Part shown: positions 2,766 to 8,383 of the stretch, in pieces
Layout: the number at the start of each line of letters is the position of its first letter
Position numbering within the stretch: position 1 is the stretch's first letter
NCBI GenBank assembly: GCA_027018875.1
Contig: JALUYA010000009.1
Coordinates: forward strand, 1 to 64,000
Direction: 5' to 3'
Length of the DNA stretch: 64,000 nucleotides
Source: Gammaproteobacteria bacterium
Lineage (GTDB): Bacteria; Pseudomonadota; Gammaproteobacteria; JAKDMP01
Position numbers and translations under genes: made by a program
The notes under the pieces: model-generated
Database searches by the model: none
Told to the model about the DNA's origin: nothing
The model's input: the letters and a program-made list of their open reading frames with translations, nothing else

Positions 2766-3308
2766 TCAATTGGACATTTGCTTGACTTCCAGGCCCTGGT
2801 TGCGGCACCCACGCCGAAGCGAGGCGAGAAGCAACGGCATTACCCGTCTGCCCGCGTAGGCTTGCCGGCGCCCCCCCGGGTAGATTACCGACAGGCGCTC
2901 CAGGCGAATACAAACCACGCCGGCGCCCGGAAACCCGGCAGGCACGGCATGAAAGCTATTGACCTCGTAGTTTTTATCGGGGAGAAACGGCCCATGGCCG
3001 ATCAGAACCAAGACCAGTGGCCAGCCATGGCGATTGCGTGCCGGATGGCCCCGCACGGTATAGCCGCCTAATATGAAACGCACGCTCTGGATCGGAGTCG
3101 AAGCAGTGACCACAAATTGCACATAAACCGGCGTGGCGATTTTCCCGGTAGCCACCGCGATCTGCCCGGGAACTCCCAGGGCATAGACCAGAACGGGAAT
3201 ATTGTTTTTGCGGGCCCGGGCCAGTTCCGGCCCGAACGCCTGGCGCGCCGTCGGGGCACAGCCACCGAGAAGCAGCGCGGCAACCAACAGGAGCAGCTTG
3301 CTTCGCAT
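2766..3308 (-). CDS. Putative lipoprotein of unknown function
   Basis: The 180-residue product starts MRSKLLLLVAALLLGGCAPT. The LLGGC box would be cleaved by signal peptidase II and lipidated at the cysteine, so the protein is probably envelope-anchored. The mature part has a beta-rich stretch (TPVYVQFVVTASTPIQSVRFILGGYTVRG) that could be an immunoglobulin-like or sandwich fold, ending near CIRLERLSVIYPGG. I do not recognise a family. It points away from the thiC riboswitch region and stands alone between thiC and the mer-like operon. Confidence 0.7.
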   Translation of the reverse strand: MRSKLLLLVAALLLGGCAPTARQAFGPELARARKNNIPVLVYALGVPGQIAVATGKIATPVYVQFVVTASTPIQSVRFILGGYTVRGHPARNRHGWPLVLVLIGHGPFLPDKNYEVNSFHAVPAGFPGAGVVCIRLERLSVIYPGGRRQAYAGRRVMPLLLASLRRGCRNQGLEVKQMSN

Positions 3309-3427: not shown

Positions 3428-3973
3428 TCAGGCTTCGAGTCGCTGCCGGTGGCGGCGGGACGGACGGCATGCCGCGGGGGAGGCCAGGCGCCGGGCATTC
3501 TGGACCAGAGAGAGGAGTATAAGGGCGAGCGCCACGGAAAGCAGTTCCGTTTCGTGGGTGGCGATAAACCCCTGGGTCCAGCCACCGATCCCGCCGATTG
3601 CCGGGATTAGGCCGGCCAAAAACCCGAAAATGATGGGAATCAGCGGCCCACAGCAGAGCAGCGGCGTCAGGGCGCCGATCAGAACCCCGCCACCGGCACC
3701 GGCCGTGCGCGTCTTGGCTCCGCGGCGGATCAGCGCGGTCACGCTGCCGGTGACTCCGCCCATCGAGATCCCCAGCGCCAACGCCCACAGAGCCAGTTGC
3801 CAGTTGATCAGGCGCAGGGAGACCCAGCCGACGGCCCCGTTCGTCATGGATGCAGGAAGCACGAAGGCATAGGCGAGCGTGAACAGAACGGCGGCCGCGA
3901 GGCCCACCCGGCGGGCAAACCGATCCCGCCAGGCGAGTCCCAGCCCGGTTCGCAGCGTGCGGAGAAAGTTCAT
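3428..3973 (-). CDS. Membrane protein with intramembrane Cys-Cys pair, last gene of mer-like operon
   Basis: The product has 181 residues and about four predicted membrane spans. A Cys107-Cys108 pair lies inside a hydrophobic stretch (TPLLCCGPLIPIIFGF), recalling the vicinal cysteines of the first helix of MerT. The ATG at 3973 overlaps the stop of the thioredoxin-like gene by 4 nt (ATGA), so translation is coupled. The C-terminus is a basic tail. A role as a second mercuric-ion channel, or as an electron-transfer partner of the neighbouring thioredoxin-like protein, is inferred from position and the Cys pair only. Confidence 0.75.
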   Translation of the reverse strand: MNFLRTLRTGLGLAWRDRFARRVGLAAAVLFTLAYAFVLPASMTNGAVGWVSLRLINWQLALWALALGISMGGVTGSVTALIRRGAKTRTAGAGGGVLIGALTPLLCCGPLIPIIFGFLAGLIPAIGGIGGWTQGFIATHETELLSVALALILLSLVQNARRLASPAACRPSRRHRQRLEA

Positions 3974-4557
3974 CGGAATGGGGCCCCGACAAAGCCAAGA
4001 ATGGTGCCCAGCGTTGCCGCGGGAGCCCCAGAGATGGTCTGCAAGGTCCCATCGGCCCGAATGAGAAAATAGATATCTGCATAGCCTCGCGGATTGTAGG
4101 CCTTTTCAAATGCCGGGGTGGCTTCCCCGAAGGTCCAGTTGGACTGCCGGAGCAAGGCGGGAGCGACCGAACTCACGAAGGCGCGGATGCCCGGGCCGGG
4201 GTAACCGCCATTGCCGACGTTACGCAGTACGACGACCCGGAGCCCGGCATCGTGCAGCAGGGGAGCATGCCGGGCGAGGACCCGCAGACCCGCCGCGCAG
4301 CTGCTGCACCAGGTGGACACCAGCCACAACAAAGTTTTGTGGCCGGTAAGCGTTGCGGTAGAGCGCGGGGTGCCCCCGACCAGAAATGGTGCAACCGGTG
4401 CCGGCTGGTTGGGGCTGGCCGCTTGTGCCGGCGCCGGGACCACAAAGATCCCCGCCGCGAGAACGAGCAGGGCCGCCTGAAGGGCGGAGCGCAGGCGGTG
4501 AGGGCGAGGGGTTACACCCCATGAACCGAAAAGATCACAAAGTCCAAGGTATTGCAT
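3970..4557 (-). CDS. Periplasmic thioredoxin-like (TlpA-type) protein in mer-like operon
   Basis: The ORF track begins this frame at 4941, but the real start is likely the ATG at 4557, which overlaps the stop of the MerT-like gene by one base (TGATG). The 195-residue product has a hydrophobic signal segment (about residues 25-45, ending APAQA). It is followed by a thioredoxin-like fold with LLWLVSTWCSSCAAG, placing a CxxC at residues 84-87. The motif WCSSC differs from the WCGPC of classical thioredoxins. In this context it may handle Hg(II) or keep cysteines of the transporters reduced; that is inference. Confidence 0.8.
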   Translation of the reverse strand: MQYLGLCDLFGSWGVTPRPHRLRSALQAALLVLAAGIFVVPAPAQAASPNQPAPVAPFLVGGTPRSTATLTGHKTLLWLVSTWCSSCAAGLRVLARHAPLLHDAGLRVVVLRNVGNGGYPGPGIRAFVSSVAPALLRQSNWTFGEATPAFEKAYNPRGYADIYFLIRADGTLQTISGAPAATLGTILGFVGAPFR

Positions 4558-5006
4558 CAGGAAACTCCTTTTTTGCATTGGGGTTCGATAACGTAACGGT
4601 GTTGGCGGTATTGATCGAAGAGACCCTTGGCCGAGCCGGCTATCAGGACGGCCATGCCAATGTATATCATTAGGGATCCGAGCGATTTCGTACCATGAAT
4701 GATGTGTGGCAGCATAACGCCTACCCAGGCCACGACGCCGCCGGCAAGACCGATCCAAAATGGCGGATAGCGCCGAGCGTGCCCGGCGAGGACGCGGCCC
4801 TGGATGTGCAGATTCCATACGATCCAGGCAACCGAGAGCGTCATCAGCGGCCCGAGCACATAGATGCTGAAGAGGTGGCGAATCGCCCCGAGACCAAAAG
4901 TGGCCGCGGTGGCGGCAATGATCGGTCCGGCCCCCAGGCAACAGGCGCTGACAAAAAATGAACCCAGGAAGCCGAAAGACTGGCGAGTGAAGATCCGTTG
5001 CTGCAT
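4557..5006 (-). CDS. MerT/MerC-like mercuric ion membrane transporter
   Basis: The 149-residue protein has about four hydrophobic segments. A vicinal cysteine pair lies in the first (FFVSACCLGAGPI, Cys22-Cys23), as in the MerT and MerC families that pass Hg(II) across the inner membrane to MerA. A further cysteine lies near the C-terminus (EPQCKKG). The start is preceded by GGAGG. It is longer than typical MerT (about 116 residues) and I could not confirm the second, cytoplasmic Cys pair of MerT. The symbol is therefore left blank, although mercuric transport is the best call. Confidence 0.75.
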   Translation of the reverse strand: MQQRIFTRQSFGFLGSFFVSACCLGAGPIIAATAATFGLGAIRHLFSIYVLGPLMTLSVAWIVWNLHIQGRVLAGHARRYPPFWIGLAGGVVAWVGVMLPHIIHGTKSLGSLMIYIGMAVLIAGSAKGLFDQYRQHRYVIEPQCKKGVS

Positions 5007-5141
5007 AGAAACCTCCGGGTAAGTAAAAAACTATTTAAAAAATCCCAATAAATACATCAAGTGTTGCACTATCCCCTCTTCATAACCAGGAGATGCTTTT
5101 ACATCCGAATCGATGCCATTGTGGTACATCTCTGCTGCACG

Positions 5142-5516
5142 TTATGGACAACATCCTTGCCCTTCAGAGAAAACGCCGGAAAAGTCAATTTCACCAGATA
5201 AACGTTTTATATAAAAGTCTGCATCTTTCTGAAAAACGGCCATACAATGTGGACATTTACAAAAATTCAACTTCTCCCCCTGATAGTTGATTTCCACGGT
5301 TTGATCTATTGGCTTTTCTGCTAAACAACTGGGGCACACAACGAGATTATTGGTTTCCTCAAGTAGGGCTTCAGGGTTTTTCTCGAACATGGCGGCACAT
5401 CCATCGCAACAGAACGAATATTCTTTTTCTTGGTATTTCTGTGTTACCGCACTCCCTTTGGTAATACCTAATCTCACAAGGGAACAACCACATGTAGGGC
5501 AAACCAGTGTTTTCAT
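5142..5516 (-). CDS. Cysteine-rich tandem TRASH/YHS-like metal-binding protein (MerH-like)
   Basis: The 124-residue product carries 13 cysteines. Two similar halves can be seen: CPTCGC followed by YSFCCDGCAAMFEKNPE, and CPSC followed by LNFCKCPHCMAVFQKDAD. Each resembles the treble-clef TRASH/YHS domain. The protein ends GQGCCP, echoing the vicinal cysteines at the MerA C-terminus. A TRASH-domain metallochaperone, MerH, is known beside merA in Sulfolobus, so a cytoplasmic Hg(II) carrier is a reasonable proposal. Base composition is clearly more AT-rich than neighbouring genes, which suggests a separate origin. Confidence 0.75.
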   Translation of the reverse strand: MKTLVCPTCGCSLVRLGITKGSAVTQKYQEKEYSFCCDGCAAMFEKNPEALLEETNNLVVCPSCLAEKPIDQTVEINYQGEKLNFCKCPHCMAVFQKDADFYIKRLSGEIDFSGVFSEGQGCCP

Positions 5517-5540
5517 TTTGATGTCTCCGTATTTAAGAAA

Positions 5541-7175
5541 TTAACCGGCGCAGCACGAGAGCTGCGAGACATCCCGGGTAAAGGTCTGGGCGCAAAGCTT
5601 GATGCCCTCGACCAGGGTGAGGTAGGGGAACAACTGGCCGGCCAGGTCCTCCACCGTCATGTGGTTGCGGATCGCCAAGGCCGCGCTTTGGATAATCTCA
5701 CCGGCCTCAGGCGCCAGCACCTGGGCCCCCAGCAGGCGCCCGTTTTCCTTGTTTGCCACGAGCTTGATGAAACCGCGGGTGTCGAAGTTGGCCAAGGCCC
5801 GCGGCACGTTCTCCAGCTCCAGCGTGCGGGTTTCCACGTCCAGGTGCCGCAATCGAGCCGTTTCCTCGGTGAGCCCGACACCGGCGACTCCCGGGTCGGT
5901 AAACACCACCGTGGGCATGGTACTCAAGTCCAACGTGGCCTCGCCGCCGGTCATGTTGATCGCGGCGCGGGTCCCCGCCGCCGCCGCCACATAGACGAAT
6001 TGGGGATTCGCCGTGCAATCGCCCGCCGCATAAATGTGCTCGGCACCGGTGCGAAGATGCGAATCCACGCGAATGGCTCCATTCGGCTCGGTGGCGACAC
6101 CGGCCAGTTCCAGGCCCAGGCCATCCGTATTGGCTCGGCGCCCCACCACGACCAGCAGCCGCTCGGTCCGGATCGTCTCGCCGTCGACGCGGAGTTCGAA
6201 CTTACCCCCCGCATGGCACACCGACTCGGTCCCGGCGCCGGTGAGAATCCTCAGGCCCTCCTGGCCCAGGTAGCGTTTGAGCCGCTCGCCCAGGAGCGGA
6301 TCCTCGCGGGGAAGCAGACGTGGGGCCAGTTCGATGACGGTGACTTTCACCCCGAGGCGGAAGAACGCCTGGGCGAGTTCGAGACCGACCGCCGAGCCGC
6401 CGAGTACTACGAGCGAGGTCGGTAGCTCAGTTGCTGCGAGCGCCTCGGTGGAGGTCCAGTAGGGCGTACCGGCAAGGCCCGGGATGGAGGGGATGGCGGG
6501 CACGGCACCGGTGGCGATCAGGATGCGATCCGGGCGCAGGCGGTGGCGCCCGTCCTCGGCTTCCACCTCGATCTGGCGCCTGCCGCCGAAGCGTGCTCGG
6601 CCGCGGATCAGGTGGATATGCTCGTTGGCATCGAGAATCGACTGGTACTTGGCCTGGCGCAACTCCTCCACTCGGTGCTGCTGCTGGGCCTGGAGCCGGG
6701 CCCGGTCCACGGCCAGGGCGGCGTGTCCGAGCCCGGCGAAGGGGTGATGCCCCGCATAGTGGCGCACCAGGGCGGCACGGATGAAGATCTTCGAGGGTAC
6801 GCAGCCGACATTGACACAAGTGCCTCCGAGGACACCCTGCTCGATCATGGTCACCCGGGCGCCGGCCTCGCCGGCACGAATCGCCGCGGCGAAGGCCGCC
6901 GAACCCGAGCCGATGATCGCGATTTCAAGGCCACCACTCGATGAGGATATCGAGTCGGCGGCGTTTCCGAGCGGCGCGAGCCGGTAAGGGGTATCGGCAA
7001 GGGCCCGGTCCAGGGCTTCGCCCGAGGGCGGGATCCCGCTACGCAACCGGGCACGGGCCCGTGTATAGTCCACCTCGGCATCGATACCCGCCTGTTCGCG
7101 CAAGAGCCGCTCAAGCGTATGAGCGCAGTCCGCGCAGTGCATACCGGCGACGCTCCACTCTTTCGTTGTGGTCAT
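5541..7175 (-). CDS. merA: Mercuric reductase MerA
   Basis: MerA is the flavoprotein disulfide reductase that reduces Hg(II) to volatile Hg(0) with NADPH in the cytoplasm. The start at 7175 (MTTTKEWSV) is chosen over the upstream ORF start because GGAGG lies 8 nt before it. Domain order: an N-terminal heavy-metal-associated domain with GMHCADCA, FAD-binding GSGSAAFAAA, the redox-active CVNVGCVPSK, an NADPH domain, and a dimerisation domain ending in the Hg-binding pair LSCCAG. At 544 residues it matches one-HMA MerA proteins. It is the first gene after the MerR-type promoter. Confidence 0.97.
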   Translation of the reverse strand: MTTTKEWSVAGMHCADCAHTLERLLREQAGIDAEVDYTRARARLRSGIPPSGEALDRALADTPYRLAPLGNAADSISSSSGGLEIAIIGSGSAAFAAAIRAGEAGARVTMIEQGVLGGTCVNVGCVPSKIFIRAALVRHYAGHHPFAGLGHAALAVDRARLQAQQQHRVEELRQAKYQSILDANEHIHLIRGRARFGGRRQIEVEAEDGRHRLRPDRILIATGAVPAIPSIPGLAGTPYWTSTEALAATELPTSLVVLGGSAVGLELAQAFFRLGVKVTVIELAPRLLPREDPLLGERLKRYLGQEGLRILTGAGTESVCHAGGKFELRVDGETIRTERLLVVVGRRANTDGLGLELAGVATEPNGAIRVDSHLRTGAEHIYAAGDCTANPQFVYVAAAAGTRAAINMTGGEATLDLSTMPTVVFTDPGVAGVGLTEETARLRHLDVETRTLELENVPRALANFDTRGFIKLVANKENGRLLGAQVLAPEAGEIIQSAALAIRNHMTVEDLAGQLFPYLTLVEGIKLCAQTFTRDVSQLSCCAG

Positions 7176-7204: not shown

Positions 7205-7235
7205 CTATAAACCCGGTACCTAGGTACCGTGTCAA
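7205..7235 (-). promoter_or_regulatory. MerR-type promoter/operator of the mer-like operon
   Basis: On the minus strand there is TTGACA (7230-7235), a 19-nt spacer and TTATAG (7205-7210). The spacer holds the 16-nt perfect palindrome CGGTACCTAGGTACCG, which has the GTAC-N4-GTAC form of the mercury-responsive MerR operator. The over-long 19-nt spacer is the hallmark of promoters activated by MerR-type DNA distortion. No merR gene is seen within this window. Confidence 0.85.
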
Positions 7236-7511: not shown

Positions 7512-8102
7512 GTGATGGGAGCCAAAAAGATGGGGGCGGACACCTTGCAACCGGGGCTCGATCCCCAAGCCTGGGTCAAACGACATGGCGATGCCCTGTT
7601 TCGCTACGCCCTGGTTCATTTGCACGATCGGGCGCAGGCGCAGGACTTGGTGCAGGAGACTTTTCTCGCCGCCCTCAAGGCGCGGGAGCGTTATGCCGGG
7701 CGTTCGAGCGAGCGCGGGTGGCTCCTGGGCATCCTCAAGCACAAGATTATGGATGAATATCGGCGCCGGAGACGGGAGCAGCCCCTGCCGGAAAACGATC
7801 GTGAGATCGATGCCCTGTTTCTCGATAATGGCCGCTGGCGGGAAGGTCCGTCCGCCTGGCCCGATCCGGAACGAGCGTTTGAGGATGATCGGTTTATCGC
7901 GGCCTTGCGTGAATGCCTGGCAGCATTGCCCGGCAGGCAAGCCGAGGTTTTTGCCCTGGTCGAGTTGGATGGCCTAGAGACCAAAGCGGTTTGTAAGGGT
8001 TTGAAGATCACTTCGACCAATCTGTGGGTCATGATGCATCGGGCGCGGCTGCGATTGCGTCAATGCATTGAACGCCGTGGGTTTGGGAGACTGCCATGCT
8101 GA
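7512..8102 (+). CDS. ECF-family RNA polymerase sigma factor
   Basis: The 196-residue product has region 2 (HDRAQAQDLVQETFLAALKARERY, then GWLLGILKHKIMDEYRRRRRE) and region 4 (CLAALPGRQAEVFALVELDGLETKAVCKGLKITSTNLWVMMHRARLRLRQCIE). It therefore directs RNA polymerase to a specific stress regulon. The tool start is GTG at 7512; the ATG at 7515 is equally possible. The 3' end overlaps the next gene by 7 nt, and that gene encodes a putative zinc-binding anti-sigma factor, the usual arrangement. The signal is unknown. Confidence 0.9.
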   Translation: MMGAKKMGADTLQPGLDPQAWVKRHGDALFRYALVHLHDRAQAQDLVQETFLAALKARERYAGRSSERGWLLGILKHKIMDEYRRRRREQPLPENDREIDALFLDNGRWREGPSAWPDPERAFEDDRFIAALRECLAALPGRQAEVFALVELDGLETKAVCKGLKITSTNLWVMMHRARLRLRQCIERRGFGRLPC

Positions 8103-8383
8103 GTTGCCGTGATGCAACCAGGCTGATTTCGCGCCGCCTGGATGAGCCGCTCGCCCGGCGGGAACGCTGGGCGCTGCGGCTGCACCTGCTGTTCTGCTAT
8201 TGGTGCCGGCGATTTGCGGCCCAGGTCCGGGTGCTGCATCACGGCCTGTACCCCGGGGGAAGGCTGCATCGGAAACTCATGGACCAGGGGGGGGAATCTC
8301 TCGCTCCGGAGGCGGCGCGGCACATGGAAGAACGCTTGCAACAGGCACTTACAGAGCCAACCGACGAAAACGGCCGCCACTGA
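8096..8383 (+). CDS. Putative anti-sigma factor with zinc-finger (zf-HC2/ZAS-like) motif
   Basis: The 95-residue cytoplasmic protein begins MLSCRDATRLISRRLDEPL and carries the H-x3-C-x2-C signature LHLLFCYWC typical of ZAS anti-sigma factors. There is no transmembrane segment, so it would sequester its sigma factor in the cytoplasm. It overlaps the sigma gene by 7 nt, which indicates translational coupling. Similar short proteins accompany ECF sigma factors next to DUF302 or membrane genes in proteobacteria; that comparison is from memory, not a search. Confidence 0.75.
   Translation: MLSCRDATRLISRRLDEPLARRERWALRLHLLFCYWCRRFAAQVRVLHHGLYPGGRLHRKLMDQGGESLAPEAARHMEERLQQALTEPTDENGRH

Follow-up and report, generated by a model that had tools for sequence, protein, structure and literature searches.

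A mercury-detoxification operon of unusual composition with a mer-linked pair of thioredoxin-like and membrane proteins

Canonical mer operons of the Tn21/Tn501 type have the gene order merR-T-P-C-A-D-E. Uptake of Hg(II) in mer operons has been described through MerT, MerP, MerC, MerE and MerF, and MerA reduces Hg(II) to Hg(0), a reaction established for the MerA family. We analysed a 64,000-nucleotide stretch of a gammaproteobacterial genome (contig JALUYA010000009.1, assembly GCA_027018875.1; the whole stretch is called the window below), in which five genes follow a mer-type promoter on the minus strand: merA, a YHS/TRASH gene, a MerC-family gene, a gene for a thioredoxin-like protein (Trx) and a gene for a membrane protein with a Cys-Cys pair (CC-TM) (Table 1). 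The locus shares with the canonical operon a merA with an HMA domain, a promoter with a 19-bp spacer and palindrome, and a MerC-family transporter, but lacks merT, merP, merD, merE and an adjacent merR, and carries in addition the YHS, Trx and CC-TM genes. These features confirm a mercury-detoxification operon of unusual composition. An earlier, sequence-only reading had listed the same genes, and its coordinates were correct on re-check.

Table 1. Positions of the operon features in the window.
Feature	Position	Strand	Basis
mer-type operator/promoter of merA	7205..7235	-	aligned with known mer promoters
merA, mercuric reductase, 544 aa	7175-5541	-	TIGR02053, PRK13748
Tandem YHS/TRASH-like metal-binding protein, 124 aa, 13 Cys	5516-5142	-	PF04945
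Divergent MerC-family membrane protein, 149 aa, ACC pair in TM1	5006-4557	-	hhalign
Trx, exported thioredoxin-fold protein, 195 aa, WCSSC	4557-3970	-	ResA/TlpA relatives in PDB, 5e-10
CC-TM, 4-TM protein, Cys-Cys in TM3, C-terminal Cys	3973-3428	-	hydrophobic segments, alignment

The merA product scores 561 bits against TIGR02053 (cut-off 454) and 716 bits against PRK13748, matches other MerA proteins at 52-61%, and has in its translation an N-terminal HMA domain (GMHCADC), the redox-active GGTCVNVGC motif and a C-terminal CC. The MerA of BMS3Bbin13 (L012:5004-6432) is 87% identical to it over the core and seemingly lacks the N-terminal HMA domain, only a few leading residues being left. The merA promoter, a point absent from the sequence-only reading, consists of a -35 element TTGACA (7235-7230) and a -10 element TTATAG (7210-7205) separated by 19 bp with the central palindrome CGGTACCTAGGTACCG (7229-7214). 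The full string, TTGACA-CGGTACCTAGGTACCGGGT-TTATAG, aligns with the mer promoters of a Klebsiella plasmid, BMS3Bbin13 and genomes G041, G119, G357 and G262. No merR adjoins the operon. The best candidate for control in trans is an orphan MerR on contig C32 of the same genome (G000), which is 48% identical to a Tn21-type MerR over 124 aa and has all three Hg-binding cysteines aligned with it. Two further MerR candidates were set aside in its favour, one on C30 beside a CopA-type ATPase (CueR-like) and one on C2 beside a CDF-type transporter; a third, on C10, has no metal-binding cysteines. The promoter and the candidate MerR rule out a reading of the operon as having no regulator. Divergent from merA lie genes for an ECF sigma factor (TIGR02943) and a zf-HC2 anti-sigma factor (7512-8383); in the relatives examined, no such genes were recognised next to mer genes.

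That merA is followed by a tandem TRASH-like protein was borne out by PF04945, which matches in two stretches (2.9e-9). The gene adjoining merA has a G+C content of 41%, compared with 61% for the window, a difference that the sequence-only reading had not remarked on. Its orthologue in BMS3Bbin13 (82%) also follows merA and has a G+C content of 46% beside neighbours of 63-70%. Low G+C in both places points to an acquired insert. An unannotated homologue directly follows merB2 on the Pseudomonas K-62 plasmid pMR68 (L055:4748-5074), a plasmid with studied mercury resistance, and in G012 (L060:710-4295) a YHS gene has a merR-like gene and one for a MerA-like oxidoreductase (30% identity) nearby, in what may be a variant cluster for metal resistance. 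Relatives are thus beside merA, merB or merR at four places, the window counted, and away from mer genes at a fifth (G290); matches in G058, G186 and G194 were left uncounted, being weak (28-30%), away from mer genes and, in two cases, interrupted by stops. A role analogous to that of MerH, the stand-alone TRASH protein of archaeal Sulfolobus mer operons, had been suggested. Like MerH, the protein is a small TRASH/YHS protein beside merA, and the mer neighbours at four places make the analogy plausible though tentative, with G290 as the exception; unlike MerH, it is bacterial and tandem with 13 cysteines. The role suggested was that of a chaperone to MerA; PMC4500099 (citing Schelert 2013) has MerH proposed to aid Hg trafficking to MerR, not MerA. 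Among 272 mer operons, Boyd and Barkay (2012; PMC3466566) counted TRASH genes in five archaeal and zero bacterial ones. The occurrence of such a protein in mer loci of bacteria is relevant to the TRASH ancestry that has been proposed for MerB.

The last three genes overlap (TGATG at 4559-4555, ATGA at 3973-3970) and are therefore probably translated together. Just downstream on the same strand, a 180-aa predicted lipoprotein-like ORF without a family match (2766-3308) could be part of the operon or lie outside it. The first of the three genes had been labelled MerT-like, and this label did not hold: profile-profile comparison gave a probability of 97.8% to MerC (E 8e-13, TM region) against 6.6% to MerT. 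Its score is below the curated MerC cut-off (NF033784, 16.6 versus 140 bits), and PF03203 (MerC) has no match anywhere in the window's genome. Profile similarity makes the protein a divergent MerC relative, not a curated member. MerC-like relatives come after CC-TM in the mer operons of G197 and G056, and a plasmid search with the protein gave no match.

The sequence-only reading had described the next gene product as a periplasmic thioredoxin-like protein, and a Sec-type signal ending in APAQA together with its ResA/TlpA similarity upholds this description. WCxxC and positions with Asn, Gly and Asp are invariant among the members of the family, which also share an N-x-GYxG motif; an invariant Asp follows the cis-Pro position. 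Where ResA has its cis-Pro, nine of twelve members have Pro; it is replaced by Ala in the window Trx (Y-A-D) and by Val in the Acidithiobacillus ferrooxidans and Acidiphilium proteins, and all three of these members come from operons without merP. PMC2757866, citing Su 2007, has the cis-Pro preventing metal binding to CxxC. Trx resembles the periplasmic thiol-disulfide oxidoreductases ResA, TlpA and CcmG in fold (by sequence), export and WCxxC, but differs from them in its linkage to mer genes, the invariant Asp, the N-x-GYxG motif and the loss of cis-Pro in three members. The haloarchaeal clusters encode Trx as a fusion with DUF3105, and a CC-TM homologue comes next. One haloarchaeal Trx homologue (L057:5371-6822) additionally has finger-like Cys/His repeats at its N-terminus and, in between, a twin-arginine-like segment.

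CC-TM has four hydrophobic segments, and its loop charges predict an N-in/C-in topology. The Cys-Cys pair of this second membrane protein, pointed out before, proved invariant: CC in TM3 is present in 15/15 aligned sequences and the C-terminal Cys in 14/15, the sole exception (G210) being also without a Trx neighbour. No Pfam family covers CC-TM. Matches to ArsP_1, Bax1-I, FeoB_C and AGTRAP were below cut-off and scattered and were taken as chance, and a scan of viral contigs gave no CC-TM relative. PF02411 (MerT) has no match in the window's genome, CC-TM included, against scores of up to 194 bits in sister genomes. Similarity to the MerT profile is weak (62.6%, P=7e-5); both Cys regions nevertheless align, and in the alignment the two Cys sites of CC-TM appear to recall the two of MerT. 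Single-sequence AlphaFold models (pLDDT 57 and 42) were too poor for use in a structure search.

The association of the pair with mer genes was surveyed in 369 genomes of the class, 72 of which have MerA above cut-off. CC-TM is found in 13 genomes, and MerA in 12 of these 13 compared with 60 of the 356 others (Fisher P=1.5e-8). Ten of the 12 MerA-positive genomes have CC-TM within a few kb of merA; in G058 it lies beside merB and merD with merA on another contig, and in G151 the gene is truncated and has no mer neighbours. G234, without MerA, has the pair with only a merR remnant nearby. A second, larger sample added one more genome, G626, with CC-TM within a mer cluster. Trx directly precedes CC-TM in 10/13 genomes, in several arrangements: merA <> merR-Trx-CCTM (G041, G119), merT-merP-merA-Trx-CCTM-merC-like (G197, G056), merT-merP-merB-merA-Trx-CCTM (G111) and merR <> merC-merA-Trx-CCTM (G357). 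All five plasmid homologues of Trx (A. ferrooxidans, two Acidiphilium, two Halorussus) are in mer clusters; since at least 5,000 plasmids match MerA, the pair is rare on plasmids. Across 11 operons the distances of Trx and CC-TM correlate (r=0.66; partial on MerA 0.56), that is, the two proteins co-diverge beyond what MerA explains. Elsewhere, then, both families are mer-linked, and not mostly found apart from mer genes, the pattern that the sequence-only reading had named as counter-evidence. The occurrence of the pair in mer operons of unrelated bacteria and haloarchaea suggests that it probably belongs to mercury resistance and has been overlooked. We found no description of it in mer operons in the open-access literature, which was the scope of our search.

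MerP had been noted as absent from the operon, and this absence extends to the whole genome (2.2 Mb, 95% complete), as does that of MerT. For MerP (TIGR02052) there are only HMA/CopA-type matches below cut-off (G000:C30), and for MerT there is no match, while in the comparison set of 15 genomes the same searches detect MerP in six and MerT (above cut-off) in eight. Trx itself is ResA-like and has none of the MerP hallmarks (HMA fold, GMTCxxC, TIGR02052). A replacement of MerP by Trx, as had been proposed, fits the window's genome and also BMS3Bbin13, where the merA, YHS and MerC-like genes are 82-87% identical to those of the window, the pair is missing at that locus, and MerT and MerP are both present on another contig. 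Six genomes with the full pair, the window's included, have no MerP genome-wide, and wherever CC-TM has no Trx next to it (G058, G210, G626), the genome has MerT/MerP. However, the pair is not strictly a replacement, because G197, G111, G056 and G262 have the full pair plus MerT/MerP; these four genomes rule out strict replacement as a general rule. Trx occurs in all of the MerP-less genomes (6/6) and in 4/7 of those with MerP, a difference that is not significant. As to the genomes themselves, completeness is just 75% for G336, and a weak MerT-like match in G119 stays under the cut-off. The counts are small and replacement is therefore a lead only.

These data are consistent with a model, to which as a whole we give about an even chance, where Trx is a periplasmic Hg(II) carrier that feeds CC-TM. 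The operon would be transcribed from the mer-type promoter, most likely under the orphan MerR, and Hg(II) would enter through two membrane proteins, the MerC-family protein and CC-TM. We infer that the CxxC dithiol of Trx captures periplasmic Hg(II) and passes it to the TM3 Cys-Cys of CC-TM, from where it would move via the C-terminal cytosolic Cys to the HMA domain of MerA, to be turned into Hg(0). The YHS protein probably buffers or traffics cytosolic Hg(II). Such a scheme would resemble the path from MerP to MerT to NmerA with a different carrier fold. As in MerP-MerT, an exported CxxC protein is paired with a membrane protein that has a vicinal TM Cys pair and a cytosolic Cys; unlike MerP-MerT, the exported partner has a Trx rather than an HMA fold, and the membrane partner has four TM segments instead of three, CC in TM3 instead of TM1 and weak similarity to the MerT profile. 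Mer linkage, co-divergence, the conserved cysteines, the lack of MerT/MerP and the loss of cis-Pro in merP-less operons argue for a carrier. The four genomes that combine the pair with MerT/MerP, the cis-Pro kept in most Trx members (as expected of a redox enzyme), the weak resemblance of CC-TM to MerT and the lack of significance of the 6/6 versus 4/7 count argue against it.

The main rival, which we consider possible although unlikely, has Trx as a dedicated periplasmic reductase that keeps the vicinal cysteines of CC-TM (and of MerC or MerT where present) reduced and thereby sustains transport, with no carriage of Hg(II). Its ResA/TlpA relatives are thiol-disulfide oxidoreductases, and both the nine members with cis-Pro and the coexistence of the pair with MerT/MerP are in line with such an enzyme, but no dedicated electron donor of the DsbD/CcdA type was noticed beside the pair, and the window Trx is itself among the members that lost cis-Pro. 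Less probable still, and in our view improbable, is a CcdA-like relay in which cytosolic thiols reduce the C-terminal Cys of CC-TM and the TM3 pair feeds Trx for the repair of periplasmic thiols damaged by Hg or oxidants, without Hg transport. Known electron relays use two separated membrane cysteines and not a vicinal pair as in CC-TM, which also has no Pfam link to CcdA/DsbD; the positions of its cysteines in TM3 and at the cytosolic end, the exported Trx partner and the co-divergence of the two proteins would suit a relay. A reading of the pair as a passenger, or as a module for general metal or oxidative stress that moved together with mer genes, in either case without a role in Hg(II) handling, is very improbable: mer operons often move and collect cargo, and G234 has the pair without merA, but the pair is linked to mer genes across Gammaproteobacteria, Acidithiobacillia, Alphaproteobacteria and Halobacteria, whose mer backbones and regulators (MerR or ArsR) differ.

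Returning to the carrier model, we propose, more tentatively than the model itself, that Trx and CC-TM constitute an Hg(II) uptake system that has gone unrecognised and differs from MerP-MerT. In it a thioredoxin fold would have turned periplasmic mercury chaperone; some bacteria and haloarchaea would use the system while having no MerT/MerP, and others would have both. In the sampled class, 12/72 genomes with MerA, about one in six, carry this nameless component, which occurs in some genomes without MerT/MerP and reaches haloarchaea. The defined pair makes delivery of Hg(II) to MerA without MerP directly testable, and it may show, like Sco1, a redox fold that has become a metallochaperone.
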